Assembly: GCF_000377945.1 (NCBI RefSeq)
Contig: NZ_KB898930.1
Location: 1-64,000, forward strand
Reading direction: 5' to 3'
DNA length: 64,000 bases
Origin: Thioalkalivibrio sulfidiphilus
GTDB taxonomy: Bacteria; Pseudomonadota; Gammaproteobacteria; Ectothiorhodospirales; Ectothiorhodospiraceae
The translations under genes and the position numbers were made by a program. The notes below the pieces were generated by a model. It saw only the letters and a list, made by a program, of their open reading frames with translations. It was not told where the DNA came from and made no database searches. Below are positions 14,492 through 63,480 of this stretch, in pieces (position 1 is the first letter of the stretch; the number at the start of each line of letters is the position of its first letter).

Positions 14492-14497
14492 GCCCAC

Positions 14498-14537
14498 AAA
14501 AAAGCCCCGCCCCTCCTTTGAGGGGCGGGGCTTTTTT
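14498..14537. terminator. Bidirectional terminator between SDR gene and DUF4168 gene
   Basis: A perfect 12-bp GC-rich stem (14504–14515 with 14520–14531) has six A residues on its left and six T residues on its right, so it can end transcription from both convergent genes. Confidence 0.92.
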
Positions 14538-14544
14538 GTGCGGC

Positions 14545-29399: not shown

Positions 29400-29422
29400 T
29401 TGTCTGAGCCACACAAGCCCAC

Positions 29423-29451
29423 AAAAAAGCCCGGATCTCCCGGGCTTTTTT
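29423..29451. terminator. Bidirectional terminator between pstS-like gene and gyrB
   Basis: A 6-bp GC stem (29429–29434 with 29440–29445) is flanked by six A residues on the left and six T residues on the right, serving both convergent genes. Confidence 0.82.
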
Positions 29452-29492
29452 GTGCCCGGCAACCGGGCGTTTTCCTGATAATATCTTCAAAA

Positions 29493-53337: not shown

Positions 53338-55164
53338 ATGTGCGGAATTGTCGGAGCCATCGCTGAACGCAACGTGGTCCCCATCCTGATGGAGGGCCTG
53401 CGACGACTGGAGTATCGCGGCTACGACTCCGCCGGCATCGCCGTGCGCGCGGACGATGGCCACATCCAGCGCATCCGCTCCGTGGGCAAGGTGGGTGAAC
53501 TGCAGCACCGGCTGGACGCACAGCCCCTGGTGGGCCGTCTGGGCATCGCCCACACCCGCTGGGCCACCCACGGCATCCCGGCCGAGCGCAATGCCCATCC
53601 GCACATGAGCGGCGAGCGGGTCGCGGTGGTGCACAACGGCATCATCGAGAACCACGCGGACCTGCGCGCCGAGCTGAGCGCACAAGGCTTCAGCTTCACC
53701 TCCGAGACCGACACCGAGGTGATCGCCCACCTGCTTGCCCATCACCTGGGTGAAGGCGAGGACCTGCTCAGCGCAGTCAGGTCCTCGACCAGCAGAATGG
53801 TCGGCGCCTATGCGCTGGCCGTCGCATGCCCCGACGAGGCCGAGCGGCTGATCGTCGCGCGCCTGGGCAGCCCGCTGGTGATCGGCATCGGCGTGGAGGA
53901 AAACTTCATCGCCTCCGACGTCTTCGCCCTGCTGCCGGTGACCCAGCGGTTCATCTTTCTGGAGGAAGGCGACATCGCAGAGATCCGCAGGGGTTCGGTG
54001 CGGGTGCTGGACGCCCAGGGCCATGAAGTCGAGCGCCCGATACGCATCTCCCAGCTCACGGCCGCCACCGCCGACAAGGGCCCGTACCGGCATTACATGC
54101 TCAAGGAGATCTTCGAGCAGCCCGCCGTGATCGCCGAGACCCTGGAGGGGCGCATCTACAAGGGCAGGTTGCTGGAGGAGAGTTTCGGCCACGAGGCCAA
54201 GCGGCTGCTGGATGCCGCGAAAGGCGTGCACATCATCGCCTGCGGCACCAGCTACCACGCCGGCCTGGTGGCCCGTTACTGGCTGGAAGAGGTGGGCGTG
54301 CCCTGCAGCGTGGAAGTGGCCAGCGAATTCCGCTACCGCCACGTGGTGGTGCCGAAGGACACCCTGTTCGTCACCATCTCCCAGTCCGGTGAGACCGCAG
54401 ACACCCTGGCGGCCCTGCGCGAATCAAAGAAGATGGGATATCTCGGCAGCCTCTCCGTCTGCAACGTGCCCGAGAGTTCGCTAGTGCGCGAATCAGACGT
54501 GGCCGTGATGACCCGCGCCGGCCCCGAGATCGGTGTGGCCTCCACCAAGGCCTTCACCACCCAGCTGGTGGCCCTGCGCCTGCTGGCCCTGGCCCTGGCG
54601 CGACGCCATGGCATGGACCGGGAAAAGGAAAAGACCCTGGTGGAGGAACTGGAGTCCCTGCCCCGCCAGGTGGAAGTGGCCCTGTCCCTGAGCGAGGCCA
54701 TCGAAGAGATGGCCAACGCCTTCGCCGAGAAGACCCATGCCCTGTTCCTGGGCCGTGGCACCTTCTATCCCGTGGCCATGGAGGGAGCGCTGAAGCTCAA
54801 AGAGATCTCCTACATCCACGCCGAGGCCTATCCCGCCGGAGAACTCAAGCACGGCCCCCTGGCCCTGGTGGACGCGGACATGCCCGTGATCTGCGCCCTG
54901 CCCAACGACCCGTTGCTGGAGAAGGTGCTCTCCAACCTCCAGGAGGTCCGCGCCCGCGGTGGTGAGCTGTTCCTGTTCAGCGACGAGCGCATCAGGATCA
55001 ACCTGGACCACTACCACAGCCTGACCCTGGCCGACATCTGCCCCAGCACCGCGCCCATCGTCTACACCATCCCGCTGCAGCTGCTGGCGTACCACACGGC
55101 CGTGCTCAAGGGCACGGATGTCGATCAGCCGAGGAATCTGGCGAAGTCGGTGACGGTGGAGTGA
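53338..55164 (+). CDS. glmS: Glutamine–fructose-6-phosphate aminotransferase
   Basis: GlmS makes glucosamine-6-phosphate, the entry to amino-sugar synthesis. The 608-residue protein has the N-terminal Ntn-type glutaminase with catalytic Cys2 (MCGIVGAI) and two SIS isomerase domains (IIACGTSYHAGLVARYW; LFLGRGTFYPVAMEGALKLKEISYIHAEAYPAGELKHGP), ending [13 protein letters not shown]. Its last ~70 codons (from 54955) are duplicated downstream at 55739–55949. The glmS 3' end is a known landing site for Tn7-like elements. Confidence 0.98.
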   Translation: MCGIVGAIAERNVVPILMEGLRRLEYRGYDSAGIAVRADDGHIQRIRSVGKVGELQHRLDAQPLVGRLGIAHTRWATHGIPAERNAHPHMSGERVAVVHNGIIENHADLRAELSAQGFSFTSETDTEVIAHLLAHHLGEGEDLLSAVRSSTSRMVGAYALAVACPDEAERLIVARLGSPLVIGIGVEENFIASDVFALLPVTQRFIFLEEGDIAEIRRGSVRVLDAQGHEVERPIRISQLTAATADKGPYRHYMLKEIFEQPAVIAETLEGRIYKGRLLEESFGHEAKRLLDAAKGVHIIACGTSYHAGLVARYWLEEVGVPCSVEVASEFRYRHVVVPKDTLFVTISQSGETADTLAALRESKKMGYLGSLSVCNVPESSLVRESDVAVMTRAGPEIGVASTKAFTTQLVALRLLALALARRHGMDREKEKTLVEELESLPRQVEVALSLSEAIEEMANAFAEKTHALFLGRGTFYPVAMEGALKLKEISYIHAEAYPAGELKHGPLALVDADMPVICALPNDPLLEKVLSNLQEVRARGGELFLFSDERIRINLDHYHSLTLADICPSTAPIVYTIPLQLLAYHTAVLKGTDVDQPRNLAKSVTVE

Positions 55165-55231: not shown

Positions 55232-55465
55232 ATGAATAGTGCAACCAAGCGCTCCACCATCTATTTCGACGAGCAGCTCCACGAGGCTCTGCGCCTGAAG
55301 GCTGCGCATACACATCAATCCATCTCCGAAATCGTCAACGACGCGGTGCGAGCGGCGCTGCTCGAGGATCAGGAGGACCTGGCGGCCTTTCAGGAGCGTG
55401 TGGCCGAGCCCACAATGACCTACGAAGAATTGCTCAACGACCTGAAGGCGCATGGCAAGCTATAG
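55232..55465 (+). CDS. Ribbon-helix-helix type antitoxin
   Basis: The 77-residue protein has the N-terminal RHH pattern (KRSTIYFDEQLHEALRLKAAHTHQSISEIVNDAVRAAL, strand then two helices) and an acidic C-terminal toxin-neutralising tail (LLEDQEDLAAFQERVAEPTMTYEELLNDLK). SD AAGAGG lies nine bases upstream. Its end overlaps the toxin gene by 14 bases. It would repress its own promoter through the palindrome at 55182–55197. Confidence 0.85.
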   Translation: MNSATKRSTIYFDEQLHEALRLKAAHTHQSISEIVNDAVRAALLEDQEDLAAFQERVAEPTMTYEELLNDLKAHGKL

Positions 55466-55715
55466 ACTTGCCTTCAGAAAATCCGTTGCCAAGGACCTGC
55501 GGCCGATTCCCAGCCGGGATATCGCCCGGATACTCAAGCGCATCGAGGCACTTGCAGACGATCCACGACCGTCCGATAGCCAGAAGCTTTCGGGCCAGGA
55601 ACGCTACCGGGTGCGCCAGGGCGTGTACCGTATCATTTACGAGATTGTGGATGATGAGCTGATCGTGACGGTCGTGAAAATAGGACACAGGCGAGAAGTG
55701 TACCGAAAGATCTGA
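55452..55715 (+). CDS. relE: RelE/ParE-superfamily toxin
   Basis: The 87-residue basic toxin has the RelE fold pattern: YRLAFRKSVAKDLRPIPSRDIARILKRIEALADDPRP, LSGQERYRVRQGVYRIIYEI and KIGHRREVYRKI, including the C-terminal Arg/Tyr residues used by mRNA interferases. It probably cleaves ribosome-bound mRNA, although ParE-type gyrase action cannot be excluded by eye. The pair is inserted between glmS and a duplicate glmS 3' end. Confidence 0.88.
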   Translation: MASYRLAFRKSVAKDLRPIPSRDIARILKRIEALADDPRPSDSQKLSGQERYRVRQGVYRIIYEIVDDELIVTVVKIGHRREVYRKI

Positions 55716-55949
<234 letters not shown>

Positions 55950-56042: not shown

Positions 56043-56071
56043 TTAAGAGGCGATGTCATGTAACATATGCT
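56043..56071 (+). promoter_or_regulatory. Weak candidate promoter of the defence operon
   Basis: TTAAGA (56043–56048) and TATGCT (56066–56071) are 17 bases apart, each matching 4 of 6 consensus bases. The -10 box lies inside the palindromic operator. Confidence 0.35.
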
Positions 56072-56081
56072 ATGTTACATG
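56057..56081. promoter_or_regulatory. Palindromic operator upstream of the defence operon
   Basis: A perfect 11-bp inverted repeat, CATGTAACATA and TATGTTACATG, is separated by three bases. It lies 28 bases before the first operon gene, which encodes a ribbon-helix-helix-like protein, so autoregulation is likely. Confidence 0.75.
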
Positions 56082-56109
56082 AGTTGCGTAACAAGAGCGG
56101 GTTAAACTC

Positions 56110-56310
56110 ATGCCAGTGGGACACAGCGGACGGATCGTGATCGAGATCGATCCAGAGCTTAAGCAGGAACTCCATGCCACCCTTTCCAAGGAAGGGGTCA
56201 GCCTGAAACAGTGGTTCCTCGATAATGCTGAACAATACTTGCGGGAAAAGTCCCAACTCACACTCCCGCTACCGTTTGGAAATGACCTCAAGGAGGAGGC
56301 CTACTCATGA
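56110..56310 (+). CDS. Small ribbon-helix-helix-like regulator of the defence operon
   Basis: The 66-residue protein reads GRIVIEIDPELKQELHATLSKEGVSLKQWFLDNAEQYL, a short strand followed by two helices as in Arc/MetJ-type RHH repressors. It is the first gene of the operon, starts just after a perfect palindrome and overlaps the next gene by ATGA. Its likely role is repression of the operon. It could instead be a small structural partner of SspB. Confidence 0.6.
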   Translation: MPVGHSGRIVIEIDPELKQELHATLSKEGVSLKQWFLDNAEQYLREKSQLTLPLPFGNDLKEEAYS

Positions 56311-57233
56311 TGCGCTTTAACAGCGAAAAAACGGCATTCGGACGCCACGAGACCTTCCCCCTTCGTTACAGTTGGCTTACCAAGGGCATCCATGCGCTTT
56401 TGGAAGATTCCACCGTATTCCAATCCGATGAAGCCACCGTCACGCTTGGCGTGGGGAAGAACATGGTTTCTGCCATTCGATATTGGATAGAGGCAGCACA
56501 GTTAGCTGAGCGTCGTGATGGTCAGCTAATTCTTACGCAGATAGGGGAGGAACTTTTCAGTCCAGGCCATGGGTACGACCCCTATATGGAAGATGAGGCT
56601 ACCATTTGGCTGATTCATTGGTTGATTGCAACTAATGCCGAGCTCGCCACCGCCTGGTATTGGTTCTTTAATCGATTCCACAAGCCAGAGTTTACATCTC
56701 AAGAAGTAGGCGCAGCACTCGTGGACTTCGTAAAGAGCGATATCAAAACCCGAGTTGCCGCATCGACAGTGAAACAAGATGCTGCAATCCTACTTCGGAT
56801 GTATACGCAATCTAGCAGAAGTGCTCGCACCCCGCTGGAGGAAGCCCTTGATTCACCACTATCGTTGTTGGGTCTAGTTTCGCACCTGCCAGGTTCCAAG
56901 CGTTATCAGTCACGCCCCGACACGCGTGATGGTCTTCCGGTGGGAGTTTTCGCGTATGCCGTGGCGGATTACCTCCAGTTCACCAAGGCCAAAGAAGTGC
57001 CGATCGAGGAGTTGATGTATGGTCGAGCGGCTTATCCCGCAATCGGCGGCGTCTTCCGCCTAACAGAGGCTGGGCTGATCAGCAAGTTAGAGGAGATGGT
57101 GCGCGTTTTCCCAGGAGCGTATGAGACTCGAGAGACGGCGGGAGTCCATCAATTATATCTTCTCGAGGAGAAGCCGAAGATCTCCTATTTAGACCATCAC
57201 TACAGTGCCCACTACAGCGAGGTGGCCGCATGA
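56307..57233 (+). CDS. sspB: DUF4007 protein, SspB-like
   Basis: The 308-residue protein matches DUF4007 (FGRHETFPLRYSWLTKGIHALLED, VTLGVGKNMVSAIRYWIEAAQLAE, MEDEATIWLIHWLIATN), which includes SspB, the nickase of SspABCD DNA phosphorothioation systems. The N-terminal ~70 residues look like a winged helix. AGGAGG precedes the start and the gene overlaps both neighbours by four bases, so stoichiometric expression with the SspC- and SspD-like proteins is expected. Function is inferred from the family and the sspBCD order. Confidence 0.83.
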   Translation: MMRFNSEKTAFGRHETFPLRYSWLTKGIHALLEDSTVFQSDEATVTLGVGKNMVSAIRYWIEAAQLAERRDGQLILTQIGEELFSPGHGYDPYMEDEATIWLIHWLIATNAELATAWYWFFNRFHKPEFTSQEVGAALVDFVKSDIKTRVAASTVKQDAAILLRMYTQSSRSARTPLEEALDSPLSLLGLVSHLPGSKRYQSRPDTRDGLPVGVFAYAVADYLQFTKAKEVPIEELMYGRAAYPAIGGVFRLTEAGLISKLEEMVRVFPGAYETRETAGVHQLYLLEEKPKISYLDHHYSAHYSEVAA

Positions 57234-60200
57234 GCCTTGCCAATAAGGTCGCTGTTAATGCGTATTACACCCGTTCCATCAACTTAGAGCGTGATGCGAA
57301 CTCCACTGCAGTCGTCGGAGCGTATATCCCGACTTCGCGAGCCATTAAGACACTGGATCGTATCGCGGATTCCTTTGAGACAGCTCAAGCACCGCGTGCT
57401 TGGTCCCTGGTGGGCCCCTATGGTTCCGGCAAATCATCATTCGCGATTTTCCTCGCGCACCTGCTGGCGCGGGCTGATCAAGATGCTACAAAGTCAGCAG
57501 CAATGGTGTTGCGAAAAGCCAACGCCAAATTGGCTAAGCGTTTTGAGAGCTTCGGGAAAGACAGCCTTGGGCATTGCTATGTCCTGTTGACAGGCAGCCC
57601 TGAGCCACTGAGTAGCCGGCTGGCAAATGCGCTCGCTGAGTCAGCCGCATCTTACTGGTCAAACCGACCAGGCCGGGCCCCGAAAGTGGTTAAGGATCTA
57701 GCTGCTCTCGCTGCCAAGGCAGGAATTACGACTACGGACATTCTGGAAGGTGTTGAAGCACTTCAGGATGCCGTCGCCAAGGTTGGTGGTAATGGTGTAC
57801 TCATCGTCATCGATGAACTTGGAAAGTTTCTTGAGTATGAAGCAAGGCACTACGGAGCTAATGACATCTTCTTGCTGCAGGCTCTCGCGGAGCATGCCTG
57901 TGCTGGACACAAGGCCAACCTCACGCTTGTGGTCTTGCAGCATCAGTCTTTCGAGCATTACGCCAAGGGTCTTGGCGAGAACCTTAAGAACGAATGGGCC
58001 AAGGTGCAAGGCCGCTTCGAGAATATCCCATTCCTAGAGTCGACAGAGCAAACGCTGCGTGTCGTCGCTGCTGCGTTTACGCATCAGCTGAGCACCACTG
58101 ATCGAGCCGAGATCAAGGCAACTGCAACGAAGTGGTCAAATGATCTTGCAGCAGCCGGTGCGTTGCCGAGCATGTTGGATGAGAAGGCGGCTGCCGAACT
58201 CTTCACCAATTGCTATCCGATCCATCCGATCGCGGCCATCCTGTTACCGATTCTGTGCCAAAAAGTGGCTCAGAATGAGCGAACGCTATTCAGCTATCTC
58301 GGGAGCCAGGAGCCTCATGGCTTCCGTGACAGTCTAATGCGTTTGGAGAAGGTGGGTGATTGGATCTATCCCTGGGAGATCTACGAGTACTTCATTCTCA
58401 ACCAACCGGCGGCTGTATCCGATCACTACACGCATCGCCGTTGGGCTGAAGTGGTTACGGCTGTTGAGCGCCTTGGTGACGCTCCAGATATCGAGGGCCA
58501 GCTCCTTAAGACCATCGGGCTTTTCAACATCGTCGGCCCCCAAGGCGGATTCAAGGCTTCAAAAGTCCTGGTAGATCTTGCCCTTTCAAAGAAAACCGAA
58601 GTAAAGCGCGCCACTCAGGCGCTAATCTCCAAGTCGCTAATTCAATTTAGAACATTTAGCGGCGAATATCGCGTATGGCAAGGAAGTGATTTCGATCTAG
58701 ACGCAGCTGTTGATGAGCAGCGAGCAAAGCTCGGTCGATTCGAACTCGCGGAAGTTCTGAACCGTCGGCACGCATTGCTCCCAATAGTCGCCCGTAAGTA
58801 CACCATTCAGAGCGGGACACTCAGATACTTTGTCCCTGTGTTTGTCGATGCGAAAAGCTATAGAACCATTGCGCGGTGCGAAGATCAACCGCGGATAATC
58901 TTCTACCTGTCAGAGGGGCAGAATGACGAGAGTGTCTTCTGTTCAGATGTCATCAAGAATTTCGATGACTTAGATCTTGTCGTTCTACACAGGAATGCCA
59001 GTCTGCTAAGAGAAGCCGTTGCTGAGAACCTGGCGCTTGAAGCGGTTCAGCGTGAGGCGCAGGAGCTCCATGCGGATCCGGTCGCCCAACGGGAATTCAA
59101 AGATCGCTATGCTGCCGCCCAACTTGTTGAGCAACAGCTACTCAGCGCGTTGACTGAGCGACCAGCTCATAACCAATGGTACTGGCGAGGCGATCTCCTC
59201 ACTGTCACCACCAAGCGCCAATTCCAAGAAGCGCTCTCGTATATATTGCGTAGCGTCTTTCATAGCGCCCCTGCAGTTCGGAATGAGCTCATCAATCGAG
59301 ACAAGCTTTCCAGCCAAGCCGCCGCCGCAAGGAACAAACTGTTTGCGGCGATGATCGAGGCGGGTGACAAGGCAGATCTGGGAATCGAGAAGTTTCCACC
59401 TGAGAAGGCCATCTATCGTTCTCTATTGCGCGAGACCCGTTTGCATCAGATGACTGAACCGGGCGTTTGGTCATTTAGTGCGCCTACAAAGCGTTCACCC
59501 TTCTACCAGTCATGGAAGGCTATTGAAGAGTTCATGGCAACGACCGAGCGTGAGTCGCGTAGCTTCCAGGAATTGTTTGATGTGCTAGCCGGACCACCCT
59601 ATGGAATCAAGTCGGGTGTATTGCCGATTCTTGCGCTAGCGGCCAGCCTGGTATTCAAGGACGAGCTCGCAATTTATGAAAACCGAGCGTATGTTCCGTT
59701 CCTGTCACCAGAACACCTGGAGCGGTTGACCAAAACCCCTGACGCATTTCAGGTCCAGCGCTTCAGGATTGAAGGCGTACGTGCATCGCTGTTTGAGCAG
59801 TATTCCAGGGCTCTATTCAATGATGGCAGCCGCAAAACTGTCATCGAGATTGTACGTCCTCTTGCCAATTTCATTGGTGGATTGCCTGAATATGCGAAGA
59901 AGACCAAGAGTCAGACAATATCCGAAGATGCTAAAGCAGTGAGAACGGCATTCAATTTGGCGAAATCGCCGGAGCGCCTGCTTTTCAACGATCTGCCTGC
60001 AGCGCTAGGTTTTGATGTCAGCGCACTAGATACAAGCAAGAGTTTCGATCCAGAAGAATTTGCAGCGCGACTGCGAGACGCGCTGCGAGAACTCAAGAAT
60101 GCCTTCCCAAAACTTCTGCAGGCGCAGCAACGTCTGCTAGCGCAGGCGTTCCAACTCGACGCATCTACACCACTATCGGAGCTTCGAGTTAAATTGGCTG

Positions 60201-60730
60201 GGCGCTATGCAGGTCTGGAGGAGCTCACGGTCGACGTCGATGGACTAAGGGCCTTCCTCAAGCGCCTAACTAAGACTAGCGGCACGGACGAAGAGTGGCT
60301 GCAAAACCTCCTGATGTTTCTTGGCCAAAAGCCTCCTGAGAAGTGGGCCGACGCGGACACGAGCGAGGCGGAAGTTCGCTTGAGTGACTTTGCTTCCCGT
60401 ATTCTTGACCTAGAAACATTACGTCTACACTACGACAAGACAAGGAAGAAGGTTTCTGGTGATTTCGATGTTTACCTGCTGAAATCCCTCAAGCGAGGGG
60501 GTGAGGCTATTGAGGAGGTGGTCGCCGTTGACGCCAAACGTCATGAGGCTGTCCAGGTCGTCAAACGAGACCTTTTGGCATCTATTAGCCAGTATGCGGA
60601 TCACGAACTTCAGCTTGCCGCAGTCGCTGAATTCGTAGATGAGTTTCTTGCGGAATACAGACAGCAGCAGTCCTCAGAGCACAGAGCCACAAGCCGAGAC
60701 AAAAAGCTAAAGGACGCGCGAAATGAGTGA
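57230..60730 (+). CDS. sspC: Large P-loop ATPase, SspC-like
   Basis: The 1166-residue protein carries a Walker A GPYGSGKS (62–69) and a Walker B LIVIDE (191–196), followed by a long helical part with no other motif I recognise (about 700–1160 mostly alpha). The position directly between the DUF4007 and PAPS-reductase genes and the size match the SspC ATPase of phosphorothioation systems, where ATP hydrolysis is needed for modification. Large ATPases of BREX (BrxC/PglY) share this architecture, so the family assignment depends on context. It overlaps sspB by four and sspD by eight bases. Confidence 0.78.
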   Translation: MSLANKVAVNAYYTRSINLERDANSTAVVGAYIPTSRAIKTLDRIADSFETAQAPRAWSLVGPYGSGKSSFAIFLAHLLARADQDATKSAAMVLRKANAKLAKRFESFGKDSLGHCYVLLTGSPEPLSSRLANALAESAASYWSNRPGRAPKVVKDLAALAAKAGITTTDILEGVEALQDAVAKVGGNGVLIVIDELGKFLEYEARHYGANDIFLLQALAEHACAGHKANLTLVVLQHQSFEHYAKGLGENLKNEWAKVQGRFENIPFLESTEQTLRVVAAAFTHQLSTTDRAEIKATATKWSNDLAAAGALPSMLDEKAAAELFTNCYPIHPIAAILLPILCQKVAQNERTLFSYLGSQEPHGFRDSLMRLEKVGDWIYPWEIYEYFILNQPAAVSDHYTHRRWAEVVTAVERLGDAPDIEGQLLKTIGLFNIVGPQGGFKASKVLVDLALSKKTEVKRATQALISKSLIQFRTFSGEYRVWQGSDFDLDAAVDEQRAKLGRFELAEVLNRRHALLPIVARKYTIQSGTLRYFVPVFVDAKSYRTIARCEDQPRIIFYLSEGQNDESVFCSDVIKNFDDLDLVVLHRNASLLREAVAENLALEAVQREAQELHADPVAQREFKDRYAAAQLVEQQLLSALTERPAHNQWYWRGDLLTVTTKRQFQEALSYILRSVFHSAPAVRNELINRDKLSSQAAAARNKLFAAMIEAGDKADLGIEKFPPEKAIYRSLLRETRLHQMTEPGVWSFSAPTKRSPFYQSWKAIEEFMATTERESRSFQELFDVLAGPPYGIKSGVLPILALAASLVFKDELAIYENRAYVPFLSPEHLERLTKTPDAFQVQRFRIEGVRASLFEQYSRALFNDGSRKTVIEIVRPLANFIGGLPEYAKKTKSQTISEDAKAVRTAFNLAKSPERLLFNDLPAALGFDVSALDTSKSFDPEEFAARLRDALRELKNAFPKLLQAQQRLLAQAFQLDASTPLSELRVKLAGRYAGLEELTVDVDGLRAFLKRLTKTSGTDEEWLQNLLMFLGQKPPEKWADADTSEAEVRLSDFASRILDLETLRLHYDKTRKKVSGDFDVYLLKSLKRGGEAIEEVVAVDAKRHEAVQVVKRDLLASISQYADHELQLAAVAEFVDEFLAEYRQQQSSEHRATSRDKKLKDARNE

Positions 60731-61547
60731 GCGTAAGTACAATATCCAAGATGCCCTTAAGCGCACCGATGCCCGGCACGTTTTAGGGTTATCCGGTGGA
60801 AAAGACAGTGCCGCCTTGGCGGTTTACATCAAGGATCGCTATCCAGAACTACATGATCGAATGGAGTACTTCTTTTCCGACACAGGCGCTGAGCTTCAAG
60901 AGGTCTACGACGTTCTTGAAAAGCTCGAAGCTTACCTCGGAAAAGAGATAATTCGGCTCAGTAGCGGAAGGCCATTTGAGCATTGGTTAAAGGTCCATAA
61001 CGACTTCTTGCCTTCACCAAGACAGCGCTGGTGTACTCGCGTCATGAAGATTGAGCCCTTCGAGCGCTGGATTGGAACGGATGATGCCATTAGCTACATT
61101 GGTATTAGGGCTGACGAGTTCAGAGAGGGGTATATAAGCCACAAAGATAATATCAAAGCCGTGTACCCCTTCATTGAGGACGGGCTGGTACGGGACGATA
61201 TTTTTCAAATTCTAGAAGATTCTGTAGGTATTCCCGAATACTATAAATGGCGCAGTAGATCCGGATGCTATTTCTGCTTTTTTCAACGACAAGAAGAGTG
61301 GCTGGGGTTAAAAGAAGAACATCCTACCCTATTTGATATGGCAGTGAGCATAGAAAAAGAGGCTGGTAACGGGTACACCTGGGTTCAGGGACGAACGCTT
61401 GAGGAAGTCGCACAACACGCAATGAACAAGCGCAAGATGTTGGGGCCAAGAGCGACCAAAACGGCGGTACGCTGGCAGGACTCATTGCGTAGTGGTGAAG
61501 AAGATGATGACCCTGAAGACCAGTCCTGCTTGATATGTAGTTTGTAG
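60723..61547 (+). CDS. sspD: PAPS-reductase/DndC-like ATP pyrophosphatase, SspD-like
   Basis: The 274-residue enzyme has the PP-loop LSGGKDSAA (23–31), SDTGAELQEVYD, RWCTRVMKIEPF (Cys104) and SGCYFCFFQRQEEW (Cys182, Cys185). A further pair lies at the very end, SCLICSL (Cys269, Cys272). DndC and SspD activate the DNA backbone with ATP for sulfur insertion and carry an Fe–S cluster; the five cysteines here fit such a cluster. The sulfur donor (SspA/DndA cysteine desulfurase) is not in the window, so a housekeeping IscS may supply it. Confidence 0.85.
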   Translation: MSERKYNIQDALKRTDARHVLGLSGGKDSAALAVYIKDRYPELHDRMEYFFSDTGAELQEVYDVLEKLEAYLGKEIIRLSSGRPFEHWLKVHNDFLPSPRQRWCTRVMKIEPFERWIGTDDAISYIGIRADEFREGYISHKDNIKAVYPFIEDGLVRDDIFQILEDSVGIPEYYKWRSRSGCYFCFFQRQEEWLGLKEEHPTLFDMAVSIEKEAGNGYTWVQGRTLEEVAQHAMNKRKMLGPRATKTAVRWQDSLRSGEEDDDPEDQSCLICSL

Positions 61548-61561
61548 GTCTTGCTAATGCC

Positions 61562-61858
61562 GTGATAGAGATCAACAAATTTATGGATAAGAATCAGCTT
61601 AAAATCGATATCGAGCCGAAGAGAATAATAATTACATCTGAGCCATACGTTATGTATACAAAGCGCGGCTACCAAGCAGTGGTAGATGTCATAGAGAGCA
61701 GAAGTAAGCGAGACTATTTTATATATATATCCGCGCGTTCTTTGTCAGATCGATTAGAAGAGCTTAGGTTGATGAATAATAATAAACTGCATGGGCTTGA
61801 GATTTGGGTAAGAAAGGAGTCGGCTGAAAAAATGGCGGGATATATTGTAGAAGAGTAG
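61562..61858 (+). CDS. Small protein of unknown function in the defence operon
   Basis: A 98-residue protein rich in Lys, Ile and Glu (KIDIEPKRIIITSEPYVMYTKRGYQAVVDVI, then RDYFIYISARSLSDRLEELR) with alternating strands and helices. I do not recognise it. The start is GTG 61562 or ATG 61583. It lies 14 bases after sspD and four bases before the GIY-YIG gene, so it is cotranscribed. It could be a partner of the nuclease. Confidence 0.6.
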   Translation: MIEINKFMDKNQLKIDIEPKRIIITSEPYVMYTKRGYQAVVDVIESRSKRDYFIYISARSLSDRLEELRLMNNNKLHGLEIWVRKESAEKMAGYIVEE

Positions 61859-61862
61859 CAAT

Positions 61863-62195
61863 ATGTCTTGCGACCCTAGAAACGCCTCTCGGCCATTTAG
61901 ATTAAGTGAAATAGAAAGGCCTGAGTACCACGGCTATGGTATCTATGGTTTTTGGTATCGAGGGCGTTGCATATATATAGGGAAAGCGGAAGATCAGGTT
62001 CTGACAGAAAGATTAAAACAGCATTGGGCGAATTGTCATAATGATCTTCTAAAGCAATGGCTCGCCGCTAAACCAGGCGAAATCCGGTTCGTGGTAAAAA
62101 TGATCGACCACAAAGAACAGATACAAGTATACGAAAAGTTTTATATCAGAAGATTTCAGCCGATAACAAATAAAATAAGGTATCAAAGTAAATAG
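61863..62195 (+). CDS. Stand-alone GIY-YIG nuclease domain protein
   Basis: The 110-residue protein is a nearly bare GIY-YIG domain: GIY (26–28), YIG (38–40), Arg50 and His54 in TERLKQHW, Glu91 in VYEKFYIRRF and Asn103 in QPITNK, all expected catalytic or structural residues. GIY-YIG enzymes cut DNA phosphodiesters. Placed inside a phosphorothioation operon that lacks SspE and DndFGH, it is the only visible nuclease and could be the restriction effector. It is AT-rich relative to the core genome. Confidence 0.85.
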   Translation: MSCDPRNASRPFRLSEIERPEYHGYGIYGFWYRGRCIYIGKAEDQVLTERLKQHWANCHNDLLKQWLAAKPGEIRFVVKMIDHKEQIQVYEKFYIRRFQPITNKIRYQSK

Positions 62196-62226: not shown

Positions 62227-63480
62227 ATGGCAACCGCAATACCTGCTATGAAAGGGAAGTTTGGTACGACAGAGTATTATTTAGTGACTATGCGTGCGAA
62301 AGAGCTTGCTGATCGTCTAATCATACCTAAGGAATTGGAAGATTGGGATGATATGTCGATTGAAGAGAGATTTCAGCGCGAAGTAAATTATGGGCGTGTT
62401 AAAAAGCACATAGCGCCATATCTTGCGCACGATGAGGATCGATTCTTTGGCGCGTTTATTGTTGATATTTACAATGGAGATAATGTCGAATTCGAGCCCA
62501 TTGATAACATAATAAGCAAATTGCCAGCGCTATATCAGCGAGCAGGTAGTGCTTTCGGATTTCTCTACTTTCAAGGTGATGAGGTATTAGTTCCCTTAGA
62601 TGGGCAACATAGACTTGCCGCGATTAAGTTCGCGATATCAGGAAAAGATGAGAAAGGAAAGGATATACCCGGTCTTAGTCCTAATATGGAGGTTGCAAGT
62701 GATCTTTGCACGGTGATCTTGCTCAAGCATGATCCAAGGAAGGCAAGAAAGATATTCAATAAAGTGAATAGGTATGCTAAGGCGACTTCAAAATCTGACA
62801 ATCTTATCACGGCTGATGATGATATCGTTGCGATAATAACGCGTGAGGAAGTGGCGGATAAAGTCATTCATGAGCGGCTTGTAAACTATGACTCTAATAC
62901 ACTCAATGCCTCATCCCCTTACTTTACTACCCTTTCCACTTTGTATGAGGCGACTGGTCTTATCCTTGAGGACACCTTTGGAAAGGTTGACAGAACGACA
63001 CTTCCTTCTCCCGCGGATCAGAATTTATACAGACAGGTTGTTCGTGAGCACTGGGAAACGCTGTGTCAAAAAGTAAGTCTGTTCGAGAATGCACTTCATG
63101 ATCCATCTGAGAATGGTGATGACAAGCGCAGAGAAATTCGGCGAGATTTTGTACTTGGCAAGCCGATAGCACAACTCGCTCTAGTGGACGCTGTGCTTAG
63201 ACTAAGGAGTGAGGAAAACGATGGCTCGCGTCTATCTTGGAATGAAGTAACAGAAAGAATAAACCTGGTAGATTGGAGATCAGATGCACCTTTATGGCAA
63301 GGTGTTTTGATGTCCGGTGATAAAGTGGTAACAGGTAAGCAGTCAGCTAAATTTGCTGCAAGATTTATCGCGTATTATCTAGGTCAGAAGACATTTCCTA
63401 AAGAGTTAGAGGTATTGCGCGATCAATACCGTGGTCATCCAGGTAATGAAGGAAAAGATTTACCTAAGCCCATAGCATGA
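62227..63480 (+). CDS. dndB: DGQHR-domain protein, DndB-like
   Basis: The 417-residue protein has the DGQHR motif (125–129, in VLVPLDGQHRLAAIKFA) of the DndB/DGQHR family, with KIFNKVNRYAKATSKSDNLITADDDIVAIITREEVA following. DndB represses dnd transcription and can tune modification; SspE also has a DGQR-type sensing motif, but SspE's HNH nuclease domain is absent. The gene starts 31 bases after the GIY-YIG gene behind AAGGAG and is the last recognisable gene. Codon use is AT-rich, unlike the core genes. The symbol is provisional. Confidence 0.78.
   Translation: MATAIPAMKGKFGTTEYYLVTMRAKELADRLIIPKELEDWDDMSIEERFQREVNYGRVKKHIAPYLAHDEDRFFGAFIVDIYNGDNVEFEPIDNIISKLPALYQRAGSAFGFLYFQGDEVLVPLDGQHRLAAIKFAISGKDEKGKDIPGLSPNMEVASDLCTVILLKHDPRKARKIFNKVNRYAKATSKSDNLITADDDIVAIITREEVADKVIHERLVNYDSNTLNASSPYFTTLSTLYEATGLILEDTFGKVDRTTLPSPADQNLYRQVVREHWETLCQKVSLFENALHDPSENGDDKRREIRRDFVLGKPIAQLALVDAVLRLRSEENDGSRLSWNEVTERINLVDWRSDAPLWQGVLMSGDKVVTGKQSAKFAARFIAYYLGQKTFPKELEVLRDQYRGHPGNEGKDLPKPIA

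Follow-up and report, generated by a model that had tools for sequence, protein, structure and literature searches.

Among described regulators, the closest functional parallel to the one considered here is RptR, which the accessible portion of its report describes as a small first-gene repressor of modification or defence operons that acts at short palindromes on the -10 and is kept together with its site across species (PMC12255303). RptR itself is an all-α-helical protein of 79 aa that binds TAGCTA and is found mainly with type I restriction systems (PMC12255303). The other parallels are likewise taken from accessible portions of the cited papers. The ribbon-helix-helix (RHH) proteins Omega and PaaR are first-gene repressors that act in their own promoter on the genes behind them, although the genes they control are toxin-antitoxin pairs rather than DNA modification genes (PMC3874152). 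The C proteins of type II systems are autogenous control proteins encoded with a restriction-modification operon; they are helix-turn-helix proteins, and they mainly time the restriction enzyme (PMC12707154). BrxR and CapW, of the WYL type, illustrate how one regulator family can accompany diverse phage-defence systems (PMC9122601). Within phosphorothioation systems, DndB represses its operon via promoter repeats (PMC6186775); in Salmonella, repression of dndBCDE involves two direct repeats, each with TACGN(10)CGTA (PMC6186775, citing He et al. 2015). RHH domains have been described in DndE, in a different role (PMC10853773). DUF499 systems with DUF3780 have been named 'Type-2 BR' systems (PMC12839542), and RHH terms were not found in the accessible portion of that paper. 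In the literature searched, which includes the accessible portions of two Ssp papers and lies apart from most subscription papers and all bioRxiv preprints, we found nothing on transcriptional control of Ssp, nor any mention of an RHH protein controlling Ssp or of the ATGTNACAT operator described below.

We analysed a 64-kb stretch of Thioalkalivibrio sulfidiphilus DNA (contig NZ_KB898930.1, positions 1–64,000; hereafter, the window) in which an Ssp operon begins with a gene for a 66-aa protein that is predicted to adopt the RHH fold. From the comparisons below, we consider it probable that this protein is a self-repressing controller of RHH-sspB-sspC-sspD, acting via ATGTNACAT dyads on its own -10, and that the same cassette is common to other modification operons. 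Relative to RptR, the predicted protein has another fold and the conserved site is another one: it is a 66-aa strand-helix-helix protein rather than an all-α one, its site is ATGTNACAT rather than TAGCTA, and it heads several unrelated systems. Unlike the C proteins, the RHH controller usually precedes a modification enzyme, and its strand-helix-helix model is not that of an XRE-type helix-turn-helix protein. WYL-domain proteins are larger and have another fold than RHH proteins. DndB and its site are unrelated to the RHH protein and the palindrome.

The palindrome, the RHH protein and the Ssp operon

The proposed operator is the sequence TCATGTAACATA-TGC-TATGTTACATGA (56056–56082, assigned to neither strand), a palindrome that is perfect across 12+3+12 bases; the proposal draws on an inverted-repeat scan, on uniqueness in the genome and on conservation with the RHH family. 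A first-pass annotation of this DNA had described an 11+3+11 palindrome 28 bases before a small gene; the palindrome is there, with one base more in each arm, and the ATG of the small gene (56110) starts 27 nt past its end. The window contains three perfect inverted repeats whose arms reach 11 bases or more and whose loops do not exceed 8, whereas 20 dinucleotide shuffles average 0.2 such repeats; when arms of 12 bases or longer are required, the shuffles average 0.0. The two further repeats lie at 14495–14540 (21-base arms) and 29420–29454 (15-base arms).

The palindrome makes most sense as a pair of 9-bp dyads, not as a single site. Each arm holds one near-palindrome, ATGTAACAT (56058–56066) and ATGTTACAT (56072–56080), neither assigned to a strand, and 14 bp separate their centres. 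No other exact copy of ATGTNACAT exists in the window; a count of two (shuffle mean 0.42) is not striking in itself, since 6 of 100 shuffles reached two. The 10-mer ATGTAACATA, however, has just two copies in the full 3.05-Mb genome, one per palindrome arm, and since it is confined to these two arms we rejected the idea of a genome-wide regulon. Spacing of 14 bp between dyads recurs in four relatives (L044, L049, L013 and L034, allowing sites up to one mismatch), and spacings of 5, 9 and 19 also occur among relatives.

A scan for sigma-70-like pairs gave a weak -35 candidate, TTAAGA (56043–56048, forward strand), followed after a 17-nt spacer by a -10 candidate, TATGCT (56066–56071, forward strand), inside the palindrome. 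The earlier observation that the palindrome overlaps the best -10 candidate holds. This pair, the best at the locus, scores 8 of 12, which is weak, and a stricter promoter scan found no promoter at the locus. In the upstream regions of the 23 non-redundant relatives introduced below, the best promoter span overlaps sites in 18, where random placement expects 11.2, a moderate excess. The relatives' sites mostly overlap the -10 or come after it, rather than lying upstream of the -35.

The proposed controller is encoded at 56110–56310 on the forward strand. That it is an RHH-like protein of 66 residues, as first suggested from the letters alone, is borne out by the ORF, a strand-helix-helix model, structural matches and a conserved SGRIVIE strand. 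An AlphaFold2 model from 12 sequences has an extended N-terminus and helices at 15–28 and 32–46; as a monomer its pLDDT is 69, with core blocks at 83–85. VIA-align returned 16 structures at Z ≥2, of which 14 are, by name, RHH proteins at modest scores (Z 3.5–4.7). These 14 are led by NikR and include Arc, DinJ and CopG; the other two are SinR, which is not an RHH protein, and StnY. Foldseek gave nothing at E ≤0.001, and MatP, CdbA and Arc top its list. Nine residues (S6, R8, V10, E12, P15, K18, L25, W35 and F36) are invariant in the 23 family sequences, and the structural scores, modest as they are, agree with this conserved sequence.

Sequence libraries place the protein in no named family. 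No Pfam model passes its cut-off for the 66-aa protein, the nearest being ParD (15.4 bits, cut-off 27.3, E 0.026) and HicB (14.3 bits, cut-off 21, E 0.04); the Omega model has no match at E 0.1, and no helix-turn-helix model in Pfam or NCBIfam matched. Of the 23 family members scanned against Pfam, none rises above a cut-off (best, ParD at E 0.0069), and none matched PHROGs. The family has no entry above cut-off, or at a convincing E-value, in Pfam, NCBIfam or PADLOC; searches of the PDB by sequence gave weak matches only, and two queries of a phage collection gave no match. Because no curated family reaches its cut-off, the RHH assignment draws on the fold model, the structural matches and the SGRIVIE strand. 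It is the modelled fold alone that places the protein in the RHH (MetJ/Arc) superfamily, and we assign it to no named family; by these scans, its family has no representative at threshold in Pfam, NCBIfam, PADLOC or PHROGs.

The stop of the RHH gene overlaps by 4 bp the start of sspB (DUF4007; 56307–57233; PF13182 E 3.9e-79, PADLOC SspB E 7.8e-92), which is followed by the ATPase gene sspC (57230–60730; PADLOC SspC E 0) and the PAPS-reductase-like sspD (60723–61547; PADLOC SspD E 8.8e-103), all on the forward strand. An Ssp phosphorothioation system, named as such in the first-pass annotation, is thus recognised here by PADLOC models for SspB, SspC and SspD, with sspB-sspC-sspD in one operon. 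Behind sspD on the same strand lie genes for a 98-aa protein with no family match (61562–61858), a GIY-YIG domain protein (61863–62195; PF01541 E 2.4e-6) and a DndB-like DGQHR protein (62227–63480; PF14072 E 3e-40); the first two were not found in the seven other RHH-headed Ssp loci, and none of the three matched SspE in PADLOC (scan to 63.5 kb). The window's gene order was found in 1 of 47 genomes, which is the window's own, with no second bearer. Upstream lie two copies of the glmS 3′ end (207 nt, 94% identical; 54954–55160 and 55739–55945), with a ParD-like/ParE toxin-antitoxin pair (55232–55715) between them. The Ssp operon begins just past the second of these copies, a layout suggestive of insertion at the glmS end.

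Distribution of the RHH gene and of its site

Relatives of the 66-aa protein were drawn from a class sample (9 of 369 genomes matched at E 0.01, several of these matches being weak or HicB-like), a phylum sample (7 of 398 genomes matched), plasmids (20 records), viral contigs (8 loci) and sspB-anchored contigs. Three HicB-like proteins (L006, L007 and L010) were rejected as family members, because the matched stretch lies inside a longer protein; the upstream regions of L006 and L007 have no exact site. The operons behind the gene were classed from family scans of representatives, annotation and tblastn with the window's Ssp proteins, and the remaining loci by likeness of their first residues to a scanned member. 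On this basis, 28 RHH loci comprise eight Ssp operons, eight Eco57I-type N6-methylase operons, three DUF499/DUF1156 systems (one, L022, interrupted), six methylases on viral contigs (C5, D12, N6/N4 and mixed), two loci in which a PLD-helicase protein comes after a SAM-dependent methyltransferase, and one polysaccharide-export operon. The RHH stop overlaps the next start in 16 of the 28. In the Eco57I-type loci the next large gene is mostly on the opposite strand, so the common target of the cassette would be the modification gene. Among 5426 complete E. coli genomes, 28 contain 80% or more of a 1950-base query made up of the RHH and N6-methylase genes together with 146 upstream bases. For Ssp loci themselves the gene is a minority feature, present in 2 of the 12 DUF4007 loci of the class sample.

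The 28 relatives were reduced to 23 by dropping those with at least 80% identity across 45 N-terminal residues; one member with a degenerate strand (L046) was kept in the counts and left out of the tree. Within 120 bp upstream of the RHH gene, exact ATGTAACAT is found in 16 of the 23, whereas the best of any 9-mer in 100 shuffle sets was 4. Exact ATGTNACAT is found in 17 of the 23, and in 21 if one mismatch is allowed, but upstream of none of the 167 other genes in the same loci.

The association was also examined in loci anchored on the enzymes. Near the operon start, the motif A[TC]GTNAC[AG]T is present in 8 of the 9 loci that have an RHH gene and in 0 of the 22 that do not (Fisher p 1.1e-6), figures that include the window, source of the motif, among the nine, and that use a form widened after the DUF499 clade had been seen; with strict ATGTNACAT they are 5 of 9 and 0 of 22. 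Among 20 DUF4007 (SspB-type) loci, five have the RHH gene and four of these the site; the site is near sspB in none of the 15 that lack the gene, a count in which L018, whose single ATGTCACAT is some 8 kb away from sspB, ranks as lacking the site. Of two Eco57I-type loci in the class sample, L070 has both gene and site and L071 neither. Three DUF499 loci have both and six have neither, in a sample of 9 of 37 records, one additional fragment record (L079) having been dropped; two of the three RHH-bearing loci (L023 and L072) are near-copies. Conservation of the palindrome in related operons had been proposed as the check on the first-pass reading, and that reading withstands it: in different species and systems the site accompanies the RHH family, and loci without the RHH gene do not have it (0 of 22).

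The six DUF499 loci without this RHH family (L073–L078) have other small first genes, one annotated as XRE; by eye, others of them resemble unrelated DNA-binding proteins, as if the slot were variously filled. On a small viral contig (L069, 1262–1284), the exact 23-bp site lies inside a longer perfect palindrome. The translated part of that contig showed no RHH gene, and we therefore set this site aside as chance or as another factor's site.

Proposed control and alternative readings

We propose that the RHH protein, as a homodimer, would bind ATGTAACAT and ATGTTACAT, the dyads over the -10 of its own promoter, and that occupied dyads would shut off RHH-sspB-sspC-sspD and the genes after it. 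The overlapping stop and start codons would tie translation of the first enzyme to that of the controller. On entry into a repressor-free cell, expression of the operon would start high, so that modification could be set up quickly; as repressor builds up, expression would fall to a low steady state. Other modification operons would use the same RHH-plus-operator cassette. We infer repression by the 66-aa protein from the position of the sites, and we likewise infer its binding, the dimer or tetramer occupancy and the overshoot kinetics. The first-pass annotation had described a simple repressor loop for a costly modification system. Conservation of the site favours the loop, but it would not be peculiar to the 'costly' sulfur system, since the controller heads several unrelated modification systems. 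A role confined to modification is itself opposed by the polysaccharide-export operon, which is headed by a relative (L049, RHH gene at 422 of the reversed locus) with the site.

One alternative makes the DndB-like protein the binder of the palindrome, in parallel with repression of dnd operons by DndB, and leaves the RHH protein some other function. A DndB-family protein is indeed encoded in the same operon (62227–63480). However, the palindrome does not match TACGN10CGTA, and the site tracks the RHH gene rather than the DndB-like gene: the latter is in no non-Ssp locus tested, while ATGTNACAT is present in most of them, and it is absent from the seven other RHH-headed Ssp loci, where the site is mostly there. 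We rejected this binder, which we regard as very improbable. The palindrome might instead act as a leader RNA hairpin, an attenuator or a terminator, since its arms could pair into a 12-bp stem closed by a 3-nt loop. The scan called no terminator-like site at the palindrome, though, and with the best -10 inside it the palindrome is probably at or before the transcript start. Because relatives keep the 9-mer and not the long stem, some with a single dyad, we rejected the hairpin too, and see hardly any chance that it applies.

The sites may also activate instead of repress, by analogy with C proteins at low concentration. In such a dual activator-repressor, like those of type II systems, a low level of the RHH protein would activate at one dyad and a high level would repress at the second. 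Two dyads are present at several loci, and L071, the Eco57I-type locus without an RHH gene, has in the same slot a small ORF recognised by eye as helix-turn-helix-like. Activation of this kind is nevertheless unlikely given that the sites are mostly on or past the -10 and not upstream of the -35, and that several relatives have one exact site only. The RHH regulators Omega and PaaR are, in the accessible portion of their report, strictly repressors (PMC3874152). We favour repression by the RHH protein from dyads on its own -10.

Few systems are known for how modification operons switch on in a new host and then throttle. The occurrence of the same RHH-plus-site cassette before several chemically unrelated modification systems looks like a portable, self-limiting on/off control of defence genes. 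One small protein and a defined 9-bp site, common to phosphorothioation and methylation operons, make the proposal readily testable, and the RHH gene with ATGTNACAT offers a sequence handle for modification operons that current libraries miss.

Co-change of site and protein, and possible exchange of systems

In the DUF499 clade, both half-sites change together, giving a symmetric change from ATGTNACAT to ACGTNACGT; the site is ACGTCACGT in L022, L023 and L072, and ACGTAACGT in L054. The two clade members in the alignment carry N in place of G7 and R in place of K33, residues that occur in none of the other 21 sequences; by eye, L054 retains G7 and shares R33. The sole RHH-bearing locus in which the enzyme-anchored motif was missed (L046/L063) has lost the SGRIVIE strand, and no exact site is left. 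Judged from these sequences, site and protein appear to have changed together, in few independent cases.

One locus, L044, carries what appears to be a scar of exchange. Its RHH gene and two-dyad site are followed by 31 codons whose encoded residues are 71% identical to the start of SspB; the sspB frame soon ends, and a methyltransferase gene and a gene for a protein beginning like the PLD-helicase protein of L043 come next. This is most simply read as replacement of an Ssp operon, with the controller in front of it left as it was. In the family tree, system labels change 7 times (minimum 5), against a shuffled mean of 16.1, and are thus clustered. Only 5 of its 24 inner branches are starred, and the tree is too poorly resolved to count transfers; we therefore argue exchange from the sspB scar and not from the tree.

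Phosphorothioation, adenine-methylation and cytosine-methylation operons share ATGTNACAT, so that on one reading a resident controller would silence an incoming, unrelated system with the same site. It is possible, if rather doubtful at present, that RHH gene, operator and promoter form a portable cassette beneath which systems are exchanged, that the shared ATGTNACAT creates 'incompatibility groups' that cut across system types, and that the DUF499 clade, with ACGTNACGT, is a second such group. If so, cross-silencing is predicted between unrelated defence systems. Two plasmid loci, L022 and L079, carry cut-down remnants of the DUF499 operon, and the RHH gene of L022 has a group II intron gene behind it.
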